Part shown: one piece after another, positions 17,626 to 54,453 of the stretch
Layout of the letters: each line of letters opens with the position of its first letter
How positions within the stretch are numbered: position 1 is the stretch's first letter
DNA from: Candidatus Edwardsbacteria bacterium RifOxyA12_full_54_48
GTDB lineage: Bacteria > Edwardsbacteria > AC1 > EtOH8
Reading direction: 5' to 3'
Length of the DNA: 64,000 nucleotides
NCBI GenBank assembly: GCA_001777915.1
Contig: MFFN01000008.1
Coordinates: 73,222 to 137,221 of the forward strand
The notes under the pieces: generated by a model
What the model was told of the DNA's origin: nothing
Database searches by the model: none
What the model saw: the letters and a program-made list of their open reading frames with translations, nothing else
Position numbers and translations under genes: made by a program

Positions 17626-18051
17626 ATGAATCAGAAAAAGGAAAATATCCTGCGCTTCGGGGTCTCGGTGGAGGAGAGCCTGGTCGAGAAATTCGAAAAA
17701 CTCATCCGACGCAAGGGATACACCAACCGTTCCGAGGCCATCCGGGACATGATCCGAAATCTGCTGGCGGCCCAGGCGGCCGAGAGGGGGCAGGAGATGG
17801 TGGGGGCCATTCTGATAATCTACGACCATCACCGGCCGCACCTGGTGGAGAAACTGCTGGCCCTGCAGCATGACGCCGACGCCGAGATCGTCGCCTCCCA
17901 GCATGTCCATCTGGACCACCATCACTGCATGGAGACCATCATAGTCAGGGGGCCGGTGGAAAAACTGGAGGACCTTCAGGGAAGGATCGGGGCCCTGAAA
18001 GGGGTGGGCCAGTGCCTGCTGTCCCGGGCCAGCTGTCAGGTGCTGCACTGA
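17626..18051 (+). CDS. nikR: Nickel-responsive transcriptional regulator NikR
   Basis: 141 residues. An N-terminal ribbon-helix-helix DNA-binding domain (RFGVSVEESLVEKFEKLIRRKGYTNRSEAIRDMI) is followed by an ACT-like tetramerisation domain. The four high-affinity nickel ligands are present with exact family spacing: H82, H93, H95 and C101 (the QHVHLDHHHC stretch). NikR represses nickel uptake genes when nickel is plentiful. A perfect inverted repeat overlapping the promoter of the following nickel operon starts 32 nt after its stop. NikR itself appears to be transcribed with dapA-queH, outside that promoter. Confidence 0.95.
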   Translation: MNQKKENILRFGVSVEESLVEKFEKLIRRKGYTNRSEAIRDMIRNLLAAQAAERGQEMVGAILIIYDHHRPHLVEKLLALQHDADAEIVASQHVHLDHHHCMETIIVRGPVEKLEDLQGRIGALKGVGQCLLSRASCQVLH

Positions 18052-18068
18052 CGGCAGAATAAATTACC

Positions 18069-18097
18069 TTGACAGGTTTTGTAAATCGTGCTACAAT
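18069..18097 (+). promoter_or_regulatory. Sigma70 promoter of the nickel operon
   Basis: TTGACA (18069-18074), a 17-nt spacer, TACAAT (18092-18097), with TGC just before the -10. It is a near-consensus promoter placed between nikR and the first nickel uptake gene, about 45 nt before the RNA would reach the start codon. Confidence 0.85.
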
Positions 18098-18119
18098 TAT
18101 ATTAATCGTAGCACGATTT
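18083..18119. promoter_or_regulatory. Candidate NikR operator: 12-bp perfect inverted repeat
   Basis: AAATCGTGCTAC (18083-18094), 13-nt spacer, GTAGCACGATTT (18108-18119), all 12 pairs matching. Half-site centres are 25 nt apart, wide enough for a NikR tetramer, whose E. coli site is also two separated palindromic halves. It covers the -10 box and the probable transcription start, as a repressor site should. Confidence 0.8.
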
Positions 18120-18148: not shown

Positions 18149-18844
18149 ATGCTGAGAATGTTTTTGGGGATCATGCTGGTTTGGTTTGCCGGCTGGGCGC
18201 AGGCCGCCCGGCCGCTGGACACCGACGACGCCGGAACGGTGGAGAAAGGGAAATCGGAAACGGAGGTATCGTTCGACCATTGCCAATACCGGCCGGACGG
18301 GACCTGCCAGGTTCCGGGGATCGCCATCAAACACGGCCTGACCGACCGCCTGGACCTCGGGCTGGGCTTTTCCCACAGCACCGATCAGGATGCCGACGGA
18401 AACACTGTTGGCTGGGGGATGTCACCGCTGGAAGTGGGCTTTAAAATGGCTCTGCTGAAAGAACATCAAACACTGCCGGATATCTCCTTAAGCGCCGGCT
18501 TCGAGACCGGCTCAGCCGGATACGGCCTCAATCTTATCTTCAGCCGGGAATATGGAGATCTGGGCCTGCACTATGACCTGGGTTACAATTCATCCGGGGA
18601 AGCCTTGGTCCGGGGCAGCATCGGAACCTCCCTGGCGGCCGAATATACCTTTGCCGACAAGTACCGGATCTGCGCCGAGCTCAACGGGGAGATCTTGGAT
18701 GACCGCTCGGAGGTCATTGGGAACAGCGGTCTGATAGGCGGCTCGATTACATTGGGTCCGGTTGACTGGGACCTGGGCATCCGAATTCATGATCAGCGCG
18801 GCCCCCAGACCACAATCACCACGGGCATCACCGCAGGATTTTAA
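18149..18844 (+). CDS. Outer-membrane beta-barrel protein of the nickel operon
   Basis: 231 residues with a signal peptide (about 1-20, ending GWAQA). The rest alternates hydrophobic and polar residues in strand-like stretches (GLGLTFS-, ISLSAGFETG-, LGLHYDLGYN-type) and ends in GITAGF, a terminal Phe typical of barrels folded by BamA. The family resembles the small porin-like proteins annotated as DUF3187 or phenol-pathway transporter. As the first gene behind the candidate NikR operator, it is a candidate outer-membrane nickel channel, but nothing in the sequence proves that. A start at ATG 18158 is also possible. Confidence 0.7.
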   Translation: MLRMFLGIMLVWFAGWAQAARPLDTDDAGTVEKGKSETEVSFDHCQYRPDGTCQVPGIAIKHGLTDRLDLGLGFSHSTDQDADGNTVGWGMSPLEVGFKMALLKEHQTLPDISLSAGFETGSAGYGLNLIFSREYGDLGLHYDLGYNSSGEALVRGSIGTSLAAEYTFADKYRICAELNGEILDDRSEVIGNSGLIGGSITLGPVDWDLGIRIHDQRGPQTTITTGITAGF

Positions 18845-18860: not shown

Positions 18861-19727
18861 ATGAAAACCTGGACTTTGTCGCTGGCATCGGCGGTGATTT
18901 TGCTGGCCGGCTGCTCAAAAAAGGAAGAGCCAGCCCGGCTGACTGTGGTCACCTCCTTCTATCCCATGTACATCATGACCGCCAATATCGTCAAGGATGT
19001 TCCGGGGGTCAAACTGATCAACATGGCCCCGCCTTTCACCGGCTGCCTGCATGACTATCAGATGACGCCCCAGGACATGAAGACCCTGAGCCGGGCTGAT
19101 ATTCTGGTGATCAACGGGGCCGGGATGGAGTCATTTCTGGACGATGTGATCCGGCAGAACACCAAGCTGTCGGTAATAGATGCCAGCAAGAATATCGAGT
19201 TGATCGAAGAAAAGGGCCACGCCAACCCCCATATATTTGCCAGCATTTCCGGGGCCATCCAACAGGTGCGCAATATCGCGGCCGGGCTGGAGAGGGCCGA
19301 TCCGGAATACATCGGCTATTATCGGGAGAATGTCCAACGGTATCTGGTGAAGCTGGAATCGCTCAAAGCCAGGATGAACTTAGCCCTCAAGGATGTCCAG
19401 AACAGGAATATCATCACCTTTCACGAGGCCTTTCCCTATTTTGCCCGGGAATTCGATCTGAACATCATGGCGGTGATAGAAAGAGAACCGGGCTCCGAGC
19501 CCAGCGCCGGCGACCTGGCCCAAATCATCGAGCTAGTAAGAAAAAACAAGGTCAAAGCCATCTTCGCCGAGCCCCAGTATCCGGCCGGGTCCGCCCGGGT
19601 GATTGCCCGGGAGACCGGGGCCGAGGTCTACACGCTTGATCCCGCGGTCACCGGACCCATGGAGCCGGAGGCCTATGTTCAGGCCATGGAGAAGAATCTG
19701 GAAGTGCTGAAGGAAGCGTTAAAGTAG
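18861..19727 (+). CDS. ZnuA-like metal-binding lipoprotein
   Basis: 288 residues with a lipoprotein signal (LLAGC, Cys at about 18). It belongs to the cluster A-I (ZnuA/TroA) solute-binding fold. The usual ligands appear in order: LHDYQMTPQDM, HANPHIFASISG, IITFHEAFPYFA and TLDPAV, i.e. three His and an Asp. The His-rich zinc loop is absent. Start ATG 18861 has AAGGAGAGG upstream. There is no ABC permease pair for it here; instead an ECF transporter follows. Being in a presumed NikR-controlled operon suggests it binds nickel, which is inference. Confidence 0.85.
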   Translation: MKTWTLSLASAVILLAGCSKKEEPARLTVVTSFYPMYIMTANIVKDVPGVKLINMAPPFTGCLHDYQMTPQDMKTLSRADILVINGAGMESFLDDVIRQNTKLSVIDASKNIELIEEKGHANPHIFASISGAIQQVRNIAAGLERADPEYIGYYRENVQRYLVKLESLKARMNLALKDVQNRNIITFHEAFPYFAREFDLNIMAVIEREPGSEPSAGDLAQIIELVRKNKVKAIFAEPQYPAGSARVIARETGAEVYTLDPAVTGPMEPEAYVQAMEKNLEVLKEALK

Positions 19728-19756: not shown

Positions 19757-20803
19757 ATGCACATGGCAGATGCCCTGATCTCGCCGGCGGTGGGCGGAGC
19801 AATGTGGGCCGCCACCGCAGGAGTGGCCGCCTATTCCATCAAAAAGGTCCAAGAGGGGTTGGACCAGAAAAAAATTCCCCTGATGGGCGTGATGGGGGCC
19901 TTCATCTTTGCCGCCCAGATGATAAATTTCTCAATACCCGGCACCGGTTCCAGCGGGCATCTGGGCGGGGGGTTGCTGCTGGCCATACTATTGGGCCCCT
20001 ATGCCGGGTTCCTGACCATGTCCTCCATCCTTATAATTCAGGCCCTGTTCTTCGCCGACGGCGGCTTGCTGGCTCTGGGTTCCAATATCATCAACATGGG
20101 TTTTTTCACCTGTTTTGTGGCCTATCCGCTGATCTATAAAAAAATGATCGGGAAAGATATTTCCCCCAAACGGATCATGATCGCATCGATGGCTGCCGCC
20201 ATCATTGGACTTCAGCTGGGGGCTTTTGCAGTGGTCCTGGAAACGCTGTTCTCCGGCAAGACCGAACTGCCGTTCAGCACTTTCGTTCTCTTGATGCAGC
20301 CCATCCATCTGGCCATCGGGATGGTCGAGGGATTGGTGACCGCGGCGGTGATATCCTTCGTCTGGAAGGCCCGGCCGGAGATCATGGAAAGGGCGTCATT
20401 GAACCAGGCCCTGGGCGGCGGCCTGTCCCTTAAAAAGGTGATGACCGGCCTGGCGGCGGCGGCGGTATTGACCGGGGCGGTGCTCTCCTGGTTCGCCTCC
20501 ACCCATCCCGACGGCTTGGAATGGGCCATGTTCAGAACCTCCGGCCAGGAGGAATTGGAGGCCGCCGACCCGGCTCATGAAAAACTGGCCGCAGTGCAGC
20601 AGAGGACCGCTTTTCTGCCGGATTACGGGTTCAAGGTTTCCGGAGGCGAAAGGCCGGCCGGTGAACAAAACGAAAAATGGCCGGCGGTCAACGGCGGCAC
20701 CAGCCTCTCCGGACTGGTGGGCGGCATGATGACCCTGCTGTTGGCGGCCTTTATGGGCTTCATTATCAACCTGAGCAATAAAACCAAGAAAAAGTCAGCC
20801 TAA
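19757..20803 (+). CDS. nikMN: Energy-coupling factor nickel transporter, fused NikMN substrate-binding subunit
   Basis: 348 residues. The N-terminus MHMADALISP has His2, a ligand of the bound metal in CbiM/NikM. Several membrane helices follow up to about residue 205. The C-terminal part holds a helix (about 230-250), an extracytoplasmic loop with HPDGLEWAMFR as in PDGLEW of NikN/CbiN, and a final helix before KTKKKSA. So NikM and NikN are joined. The operon context with nikR favours nickel over cobalt. It is the third gene of the operon. Confidence 0.92.
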   Translation: MHMADALISPAVGGAMWAATAGVAAYSIKKVQEGLDQKKIPLMGVMGAFIFAAQMINFSIPGTGSSGHLGGGLLLAILLGPYAGFLTMSSILIIQALFFADGGLLALGSNIINMGFFTCFVAYPLIYKKMIGKDISPKRIMIASMAAAIIGLQLGAFAVVLETLFSGKTELPFSTFVLLMQPIHLAIGMVEGLVTAAVISFVWKARPEIMERASLNQALGGGLSLKKVMTGLAAAAVLTGAVLSWFASTHPDGLEWAMFRTSGQEELEAADPAHEKLAAVQQRTAFLPDYGFKVSGGERPAGEQNEKWPAVNGGTSLSGLVGGMMTLLLAAFMGFIINLSNKTKKKSA

Positions 20804-20951: not shown

Positions 20952-21761
20952 ATGTCCAATATCATAAACGCCATATATAACATCCGGCAGTTTGACGAGC
21001 TGGCCGGCCGGGATTCCTTCATCCACCGATTGCATCCCCTGGCCAAGCTGCTGTCCACCCTGGTTTACACGGTGCTGCTGGTCTCCTACGACAAGTACGC
21101 CACAATTGCCCTGCTGCCTTTGGTATTCTTTCCGGTATTCGTTGCAGCAGCAGCGAAAATCCCCGTGGACCCCCTGTTAAAGCGTCTCTTGTACATCGAA
21201 CCGATGATAGTGGGCATAGGTCTTTTGAACCCCTTGTTCGATCAGGGGACCGTAAATTATTTGGGATATACGATGTCGTCCGGATGGCTGATCTTCTGGT
21301 CGATATTTTTAAAAGGGACCCTGGCCGTGACCTCGGCCCTGCTGCTGATAGCCACCACCGGTATGGATGGGGTGGCGCTTTCCCTGAGAAAACTGAAGGT
21401 TCCCAGGATATTCGTTCTCCAGATGATCCTGACCTACCGGTACATATCCGTTCTGCTGGAGGAGGCCGCCAGAACCGTCCAGGCTTACGCCTTGCGGGCT
21501 TTCAGTTCCCAAGGGCTTAAACGGGAGGTGTGGGGCCCGCTGCTGGGGCAGATCCTTTTAAGGACCGTGGACCGGGCCCAGAGGGTCTATGATGCCATGT
21601 GCCTGCGGGGCTTTAGAGGCGAATACCATACCGGAAAAGGGCCGGGGGCGGGCTGGATCGACATCATGTATGTATCGACCTGGGGCGCATTTTTTGCCCT
21701 GTCCCGCATGATAAACCTCCCCTTGTGGCTGGGAAACGTGATGACGGGAGTTTCAAAATGA
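20952..21761 (+). CDS. nikQ: Energy-coupling factor transporter transmembrane protein (T component)
   Basis: 269 residues of the CbiQ/NikQ family. It has several N- and C-terminal membrane segments. The signature Ala-Arg motifs are seen around RTVQAYALRAFS and YDAMCLRGFRGEYH, which couple to the ATPase. The 148-nt gap before it holds no gene, and it contains a fragment related to the GCACTGAGCTTGTCGAA repeat found at 40332-40513. Its last codons overlap the ATPase start (ATGA at 21758-21761), so the two are translationally coupled. Confidence 0.93.
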   Translation: MSNIINAIYNIRQFDELAGRDSFIHRLHPLAKLLSTLVYTVLLVSYDKYATIALLPLVFFPVFVAAAAKIPVDPLLKRLLYIEPMIVGIGLLNPLFDQGTVNYLGYTMSSGWLIFWSIFLKGTLAVTSALLLIATTGMDGVALSLRKLKVPRIFVLQMILTYRYISVLLEEAARTVQAYALRAFSSQGLKREVWGPLLGQILLRTVDRAQRVYDAMCLRGFRGEYHTGKGPGAGWIDIMYVSTWGAFFALSRMINLPLWLGNVMTGVSK

Positions 21762-22525
21762 GCCATCATATCACCGAGGCCAAAGATCTATTCTATTCCT
21801 ATCCCGACGGCCATCAGGCCGTCAACGGCCTGTCCTTCCGCATCCACCACGGGGAATCGGTGGGCATCATCGGCGCCAACGGGGCGGGGAAATCCACCCT
21901 GCTGATGCTTTTGACGGACATTCTTACGCCGGCAAGGGGCGAGGTGGTCATCGGCGAGGTCGGGCTTACCAAGCACACCCTGAACATGATCCGGCAGAGG
22001 CTGGGGATGGTGTTCCAGAATCCCGACGACCAGCTGTTCATGACCACGGTCCATGACGACGTGGCCTTCGGCCCGCGCAACCTGAAGATCGACGAGCCCC
22101 AGGTGGAGCAGAGGGTGGTCTCAGCGTTGGAACAGGTCGGCATACTGCATCTTAAAGACCGGGCCCCGTTCCATCTCTCGGCCGGGGAAAAACGGGCCGC
22201 CGCCATCGCCACGGTGCTGTCCATGTCCCCGGACATCCTGATACTGGACGAGCCCACCTCTTCGCTGGACCCCAAGTCCCGGCGGCGTTTGATGAATATA
22301 CTCAGGGGATTCGAGCATACCAAGATAATCACCTCCCACGATCTGGATATGGTGCTGGAGATCTGTCAGCGGGTCATCGTCATGAAAGACGGACAGGCCA
22401 TAGCCGACGGCCCGGCCAAAGATATTCTGACGAACCAGGGATTGATGGAGGAGGCCGGCCTGGAGATCCCCTTAAGCCTGCAAGGGTGCCCGGTGTGCGG
22501 AAGATCGAAATCGGGCACAGATTAA
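21758..22525 (+). CDS. nikO: Energy-coupling factor nickel transporter ATPase
   Basis: 255 residues of the CbiO/NikO ABC ATPase family. Walker A is GANGAGKST, the Q-loop lies near GMVFQNPDDQLF, the signature is LSAGEKRAAAIA, and Walker B is ILILDEPTSSLD; the switch His is in ITSHDLDM. Start ATG 21758 overlaps the nikQ stop. A family-atypical ending, GCPVCGRSKSGTD, gives a CxxC pair at 244 and 247 that might bind metal. A strong hairpin terminator begins 38 nt after the stop. Confidence 0.94.
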   Translation: MSHHITEAKDLFYSYPDGHQAVNGLSFRIHHGESVGIIGANGAGKSTLLMLLTDILTPARGEVVIGEVGLTKHTLNMIRQRLGMVFQNPDDQLFMTTVHDDVAFGPRNLKIDEPQVEQRVVSALEQVGILHLKDRAPFHLSAGEKRAAAIATVLSMSPDILILDEPTSSLDPKSRRRLMNILRGFEHTKIITSHDLDMVLEICQRVIVMKDGQAIADGPAKDILTNQGLMEEAGLEIPLSLQGCPVCGRSKSGTD

Positions 22526-29499: not shown

Positions 29500-30217
29500 T
29501 AAAAACAGGTTGCACATCCAATGGTTAGGCCGGATGTTACTTTCTTGTGACCAAGAAAGTAACCAAAGAAGTCTTTGCCGCCCAGTTCCGCGGATAGCAA
29601 GGCTTACGCCCCGGCATTCATTGAACCAGAACAAGCAGGAGGCACATGACGCAATGACTGCTTTTTCGGGGCTGAAGCATAGCCGCTCCGCTGAAGGCGG
29701 GAACCCACCTCCGGGTCGCATCAGCGCTGCTGTCCGGCTAAAAGCTGCCGTGAAAAATGTTTTGCCTGCGGGTGCCTAATTTCGTGATCAAGACATTTAG
29801 GCAGCTGGCTATAAAAACTACCAGGCAGCGGTGCAGCGACAGTTCTTCCGCCACCGCAGGTAAATCCATATAGGCGGATCCGCCTTTGGCGTGACTTTGT
29901 AGCTTTCTCTTCAAAGAGAAAGCGGAGAAAGGATAATTTTACGGAAACGGGAAATAATCTGAAGAGTCTTATTGCGGCGCTGGCCATGGCCTTCTCCTCG
30001 GTCAGCGTGGTGAGCAACAGCCTGAGGCTGAGAAAGTGGAGGCCCTAAGAAGGTTTGAAATATTGAGTATGTCATTCCAGACTTGATCGGGAATCCACCA
30101 GAGATATGGATTCCTGCTCCCCGCCTTTGCGAGGACAAGCTTCGCAGGAATGACATACCGTGTTTATATCTTTTGGGATTTATATTAAAAGCAAAAATAG
30201 TGTTTAAGGAGGCTGAC
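29500..30217 (+). repeat. Non-coding repeat element bracketed by copA 3' ends
   Basis: A 718-nt gap with no convincing gene. It starts with a 12-bp hairpin, GTTACTTTCTTG/CAAGAAAGTAAC (29536-29547/29552-29563), and has a 10-bp hairpin, GCTTTCTCTT/AAGAGAAAGC (29902-29911/29914-29923), near the other end. A second copy of the final 67 bases of copA follows at 29974-30040 and ends in frame with a stop. Palindromic repeats lie at 30071-30155. An open frame at 29510-29779 and the antisense frames look like by-products. The form suggests an inserted dispersed element, not a recognised insertion sequence. Confidence 0.65.
29974..30040 (+). pseudogene. copA: Duplicate 3' end of copA
   Basis: Matches 29428-29494 at 66 of 67 bases. 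It encodes AALAMAFSSVSVVSNSLRLRK-like codons and then WRP stop. The orphan lacks any upstream copA sequence. Confidence 0.9.
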
Positions 30218-48344: not shown

Positions 48345-48378
48345 CATGACCAGGCTGGCCATAGCCAGCCTGGTCATG
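48345..48378 (+). terminator. Terminator of the mcsA-mcsB-clpC operon
   Basis: CATGACCAGGCTGGC (48345-48359), 4-nt loop, GCCAGCCTGGTCATG (48364-48378): a perfect 15-bp stem, followed by TTTAATT. Confidence 0.8.
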
Positions 48379-52783: not shown

Positions 52784-52830
52784 CGGGGCATCATTCCGAT
52801 GACAATCCCGTGAGCAGGTGACTCCTGATG

Positions 52831-52862
52831 ACAGGCCCCTCTCCATAAGGGGAGGGGCCTGT
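52831..52862 (+). terminator. Hairpin between lpxD and tnaA
   Basis: ACAGGCCCCTC (52831-52841) pairs with GAGGGGCCTGT (52852-52862), an 11-bp stem. No U-run follows, so it may be a leader structure of tnaA. Confidence 0.6.
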
Positions 52863-52910
52863 CTTATGAACGTGGAAAATCAATATGAAATACCTTTCAA
52901 GGAGGGACGC

Positions 52911-54420: not shown

Positions 54421-54453
54421 CAAGAAAGCCCCGCTGGTAGCGGGGCTTTCTTG
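54421..54453. terminator. Bidirectional terminator between tnaA and the metallo-hydrolase gene
   Basis: CAAGAAAGCCCCGCT, loop GGT, AGCGGGGCTTTCTTG: a perfect 15-bp stem. U-rich bases follow on both strands (TTATT; TTATC on the other side), and the two flanking genes converge here. Confidence 0.85.

Follow-up and report, generated by a model that had tools for sequence, protein, structure and literature searches.

A predicted NikR operator of the deltaproteobacterial class within a nickel-uptake promoter of Candidatus Edwardsbacteria

In a 64,000-nucleotide stretch of the genome of Candidatus Edwardsbacteria bacterium RifOxyA12_full_54_48 (hereafter the window), a large palindrome lies on a promoter between nikR, which encodes a nickel-responsive repressor, and a set of metal-transport genes. 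Two questions are raised by this locus: whether the palindrome is the operator of NikR, and whether its sequence represents a recognition class of its own, a possibility put forward in the initial annotation. On the evidence of the sequence elements, of how well they are conserved, and of the genes present, the best explanation, with a probability of roughly 0.93, is that NikR uses the palindrome as an operator, that this operator belongs to the published deltaproteobacterial class, and that it is built into the extended -10 element of the only promoter detected ahead of the operon, where it would mediate repression by Ni(II)-NikR.

The regulator, the promoter, and the palindrome

The regulatory features of the locus are as follows.

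17626-18051, + strand: nikR, Ni(II)-responsive ribbon-helix-helix (RHH) repressor of 141 aa, with NikR_C and RHH_1 domains and the beta-strand RFGVS
18069-18074, + strand: -35 hexamer TTGACA, kept at the same place in relatives
18083-18119, unstranded: predicted NikR operator, perfect 12-bp inverted repeat AAATCGTGCTAC-N13-GTAGCACGATTT, conserved in Candidatus Edwardsbacteria
18088-18094, + strand: left half-site GTGCTAC (published motif GTGTTAC-N13/14-GTAACAC; PMC545781)
18092-18097, + strand: -10 hexamer TACAAT, within the operator, in the same register at nine exact nik-adjacent sites of Edwardsbacteria
18108-18114, + strand: right half-site GTAGCAC

The nikR product was assigned to the NikR family by the presence of both an N-terminal ribbon-helix-helix domain (RHH_1, E=1.5e-10) and a C-terminal NikR_C domain (E=2.9e-26) in Pfam searches. 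It also scored above the cut-off of the NCBIfam NikR equivalog NF003381, its relatives in the PDB include 2bj1, 2ca9, and 1q5v, and it is the sole NikR_C match in the genome. Alignment with the Pyrococcus and Helicobacter proteins placed the nickel ligands at H82, H93, H95, and C101. These have the same spacing as H76, H87, H89, and C95 of E. coli NikR, and the earlier claim of four correctly spaced ligands was thus borne out. The protein shares 89% identity with one Candidatus Edwardsbacteria record, and the next-nearest named records belong to UBP2.

The annotated promoter was confirmed at 18069-18097, downstream of the end of nikR at 18051, with a spacer of 17 nt from TTGACA to TACAAT, an extended -10 TG at 18089-18090, and 11 of 12 consensus bases in a promoter scan. 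Three promoter-like sites (at least 9/12) were found in the 1.4-kb region, versus 0.6 in shuffles. The perfect 12-bp repeat over the -10 hexamer was likewise found as described, with arms at 18083-18094 and 18108-18119 and a 13-nt spacer; when one mismatch was allowed, the arms lengthened to 17 nt and the gap shrank to 3 nt. The left half-site GTGCTAC contains the TG of the extended -10 and reaches three bases into the -10 hexamer.

The window contains five perfect 12-bp inverted repeats whose loops measure 3-20 nt, so such repeats are not unique to this locus; because only 0.05 per window were expected from second-order Markov simulations, the repeat at 18083-18119 is not attributed to chance. 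A single copy of the core GTGCTAC-N13-GTAGCAC is present in the 2.74-Mb genome, where a reversed control pattern had no matches. The four further repeats have short loops (29536-29563, 48348-48375, 52830-52863, and 54424-54450) and are probably terminators.

The operon and its predicted substrate

Five genes follow the promoter.

18149-18844, + strand: outer-membrane beta-barrel, first gene of the operon, 231 aa (predicted structure, Foldseek)
18861-19727, + strand: ZnuA-family metal-binding lipoprotein, a binding protein (PF01297, E=3.7e-69)
19757-20803, + strand: NikMN fusion, ECF S component CbiM plus PDGLE (PF01891, 1.9e-59; PF13190, 4.1e-29)
20952-21761, + strand: NikQ, ECF T component (PF02361, 7.8e-30; TIGR02454 above cut-off)
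21725-22525, + strand: NikO, ECF ATPase (PF00005, 1.9e-32; best NCBIfam matches are ECF ATPases)

The M, N, Q, and O components that together characterize NikMNQO were found in one operon, as CbiM plus PDGLE, CbiQ, and an ECF ATPase. The gene content thus agrees with the nickel-uptake operon of the initial annotation, with the amendments that NikM and NikN are fused and that the two leading genes had gone unmentioned. The model of the barrel has 13 predicted strands and a mean pLDDT of 73.8, and its Foldseek matches include FapF, NanC, and the COG4313 channel 4rl8; a profile match to Phenol_MetA_deg was weak. Known NikMNQO operons of the ECF type (PMC545781; PMC2667541) share the NikM, NikN (PDGLE), NikQ, and NikO components and the link to NikR. 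Unlike in those operons, a ZnuA-family lipoprotein and an outer-membrane barrel precede the transporter here, as do a TonB-dependent receptor and a DUF364 protein in some relatives.

A need for nickel is plausible because the genome also carries, at another locus, a gene for a [NiFe]-hydrogenase-type large subunit. This gene and the link to NikR are the two observations that point to nickel rather than cobalt as the predicted NikMNQO substrate. In principle, the metal could include zinc or cobalt, because the operon encodes a ZnuA-family binding protein. The gene for this lipoprotein (18861-19727) has no neighboring ZnuBC-type permease within the window (compare loci L091, L002, L094, and L114). 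If the ZnuA-type protein does feed the ECF transporter, the pairing would be an unusual one.

Conservation within the phylum and alternative readings

The site and the promoter were conserved in nine of ten Candidatus Edwardsbacteria genomes. An exact match to GTGYTAC-N12-14-GTARCAC was likewise present in 9/10 genomes, versus 1/10 for the reversed control, and the symmetric GTGCTAC form predominated. In eight genomes (G000-G004 and G007-G009), the exact site was beside nikR and/or directly before the operon. The ninth genome with nikR, G006, contains two tandem copies of GTGCTATAAT...GTAGCAC with one mismatch each, accompanied by TTGACA-N18-TATAAT. No nikR was detectable in G005, a genome of 88% completeness, and neither of its two motif copies is beside nik genes. 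A lack of conservation upstream of homologous operons had been named in the initial annotation as the finding to look for against the operator; the search was carried out, and the site proved to be conserved across the phylum.

The coupling to the promoter was equally regular: each of the nine exact Edwardsbacteria sites that adjoin nik genes had TTGAC(A/G/T)-N17-TACAAT in identical register, and the probability of meeting an exact TTGACA by chance at a spacing of 16, 17, or 18 nt is about 0.0007 per site. The site was kept where the surrounding genes vary. For example, the barrel gene is missing in G007 and G008, and NikMNQO is swapped in G008 and G009 for an unrelated putative polytopic permease with an H-x5-DH motif, which in G008 has weak RcnA-like and DsbD_2 matches. 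In G001, two copies of the site are 3.9 kb apart: one adjoins nikR and precedes a TonB-dependent receptor cluster, and the other precedes the barrel gene.

Three other readings of the palindrome were weighed. A role as a terminator or RNA hairpin closing the nikR transcript, though suggested by a stem of at least 12 pairs (-17.2 kcal/mol, z -5) followed by a T-rich stretch, is very improbable: a terminator scan found none, and the fixed N13 spacing and the promoter hexamers held in register argue against it. Another gene stands between nikR and the site in G007, G008, and G009, the second G001 copy is remote from the one beside nikR, and in Nitrospirota, Poribacteria, and Omnitrophota the motif is upstream of nikR. 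The conserved promoter register and the sites upstream of nikR were taken as grounds for rejecting this reading. Binding by another metal repressor of the Zur or Fur type has a marginally smaller chance of being correct. The ZnuA-family gene in second position in the operon and one single-mismatch site of G006 upstream of a gene assigned by eye to the Fur family speak for it, but the 27-bp span, the 7-bp half-sites, and N13 fit NikR rather than Zur or Fur boxes (PMC545781), and in other phyla, too, the motif is found next to nikR.

The third reading, in which NikR binds a genuinely new recognition sequence through contacts unlike those of known NikR classes, was considered just as improbable as a Zur or Fur site. 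Its attraction is that the half-site is unlike GTATGA of E. coli and that symmetric GTGCTAC prevails in Edwardsbacteria. Against it, each half-site is one base off a deltaproteobacterial consensus derived in 2004, from which a Desulfuromonas site deviates at the same position (PMC545781), and Desulfuromonadales have both mixed and identical sites ahead of nikMN. In addition, the RFGVS strand, the commonest among the relatives found (35/75), accompanies both the T and the C variants, and no covariation was seen between half-site position 4 (C/T) and the residues of the NikR beta-strand. A new class was rejected on the published motif and the Desulfuromonadales sites. The difference from E. coli noted in the initial annotation stands, while the novelty drawn from that comparison alone is not supported. 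The operator assignment itself is strongly supported by the position of the palindrome, the conservation of site and promoter, and the match to the published motif.

The operator class, its distribution, and its predicted function

The NikR signal published for deltaproteobacteria, GTGTTAC-N13/14-GTAACAC upstream of nikMNQO, agrees with the window site in length, N13 spacing, inverted layout, regulator family, and type of target operon, as well as in 12 of 14 bases (6/7 per half-site), position 4 of each half-site being C here and T in the published signal (PMC545781). The location, upstream of nickel-transport genes and/or nikR and conserved among relatives, is also that of the class. Judged by its bases, the window site is within the natural variation of this class, where the Desulfuromonas site reads GTGccAC-N13-GTAACAC (PMC545781). 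With a close variant already in the literature, it counts as an unexceptional case, although a very clean and well-conserved one. The E. coli operator before nikABCDE, GTATGA-N16-TCATAC (PMC7055735), is likewise an inverted repeat of 27-28 bp through which Ni(II)-NikR represses a nickel importer, as is predicted here. The window site does not match that sequence, and the two systems differ in half-site, NikR beta-strand (RFGVS here), and importer (ECF NikMNQO versus NikABCDE).

Among 75 nikR loci of other phyla, the four exact motif matches were all at spacing 13, with none at other spacings from 4 to 25; with up to one mismatch, ten matches were at spacing 13 versus zero or one at each other spacing in that range. 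Mixed sites (T/C) were found in Nitrospirota, Poribacteria, and Desulfuromonadales. A search of 14 further genomes yielded exact sites in six, five of which are Desulfuromonadales or Deltaproteobacteria with the site about 150-200 bp upstream of NikMN, and the sixth a member of Poribacteria with the site beside nikR. In one of the five, a Desulfuromonadales genome, GTGCTAC-N13-GTAGCAC is identical to the window site. The class is generalized here as GTGYTAC-N13-GTARCAC. A recognition class known from deltaproteobacteria is thereby extended to several further phyla, one of them uncultured, and with this degenerate form nickel regulons could be predicted for genomes available only from metagenomes.

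The placement of the operator on the promoter was seen again at one locus each in Poribacteria and Omnitrophota, and in Nitrospirota with weaker -10 boxes. It is not universal, because by inspection the sites of five Desulfuromonadales/Deltaproteobacteria genomes (L115-L119) are just upstream of a -35-like, TTGACC-like hexamer, in contrast to the window operator on the -10. Promoter geometry thus varies between lineages with the same half-sites.

Classical repression is the likeliest mechanism, and, by analogy with the NikR family, it is predicted to depend on nickel and to involve binding of the NikR tetramer. When cellular nickel is sufficient, Ni(II) would fill the H82/H93/H95/C101 sites, and each half-site would be occupied by one RHH dimer of the tetramer, with the two dimers separated by about two turns of the helix (20 bp center to center). 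The left dimer would cover the -10 and block RNA polymerase at the extended -10. Under nickel scarcity, NikR would leave the DNA and the near-consensus promoter would drive synthesis of the uptake system; because of the block by Ni(II)-NikR, the uptake genes would be expressed only in that state.

Judging by the genes conserved downstream of the operator, candidate parts of nickel uptake include a TonB receptor, the outer-membrane barrel, DUF364, and the ZnuA-type protein. In G006, the tandem sites precede a longer same-strand run that holds the same operon, with a TonB-dependent receptor, a radical SAM protein, a second ECF module, DUF364, the barrel, the ZnuA-type protein, a cupin, NikMN, and NikQ, where the receptor, radical SAM, ECF, DUF364, and cupin names were given by eye or by likeness to scanned genes. 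TonB-dependent receptors under NikR-type operators were observed in two relatives (L114 8032-10323 in G006 and L091 6651-8891 in G001), which suggests active uptake of nickel or a metallophore across the outer membrane. It is tentatively proposed, as a possibility less likely than its opposite, that NikR in Candidatus Edwardsbacteria controls a complete envelope-spanning route for nickel, possibly as a metallophore, through a TonB-dependent receptor or barrel, a DUF364 chelation protein, a ZnuA-type protein, and an ECF or other permease, and that the operator is hard-wired into the extended -10 in several phyla, so that half-site and promoter co-evolve. A literature search on nickel in Edwardsbacteria returned nothing relevant.

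Several minor observations were made in the relatives. A DUF364/DUF4213 protein (putative heavy-metal chelation) is encoded between the operator and the barrel gene in two of them (L002 6511-7107 and L114 3636-4391). The second ECF-type module of G006 (L114 4540-7363) comprises two ATPase domains, a T component, and an unknown membrane protein, and adjoins the radical SAM-like protein. Where another permease replaces NikMNQO (G008 and G009), the ZnuA-family gene remains under the operator. Exact NikR-like palindromes were also found away from nik genes in G004, G005, and G007 (L102, L107, L108, and L109, around 1501-1528 in each), two of them with N14; examples lie upstream of a metG-like gene and upstream of an adenosine-deaminase-like gene. 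Because of these few copies, the motif alone is not fully specific. Additionally, G004 encodes a second, divergent NikR (L096 5961-6329, G004:C80; 43% identical) beside its own NikMN and NikQO. A clear N13 operator was looked for at this second cluster and none was found; its intergenic region holds several direct copies of GTAGCACG.
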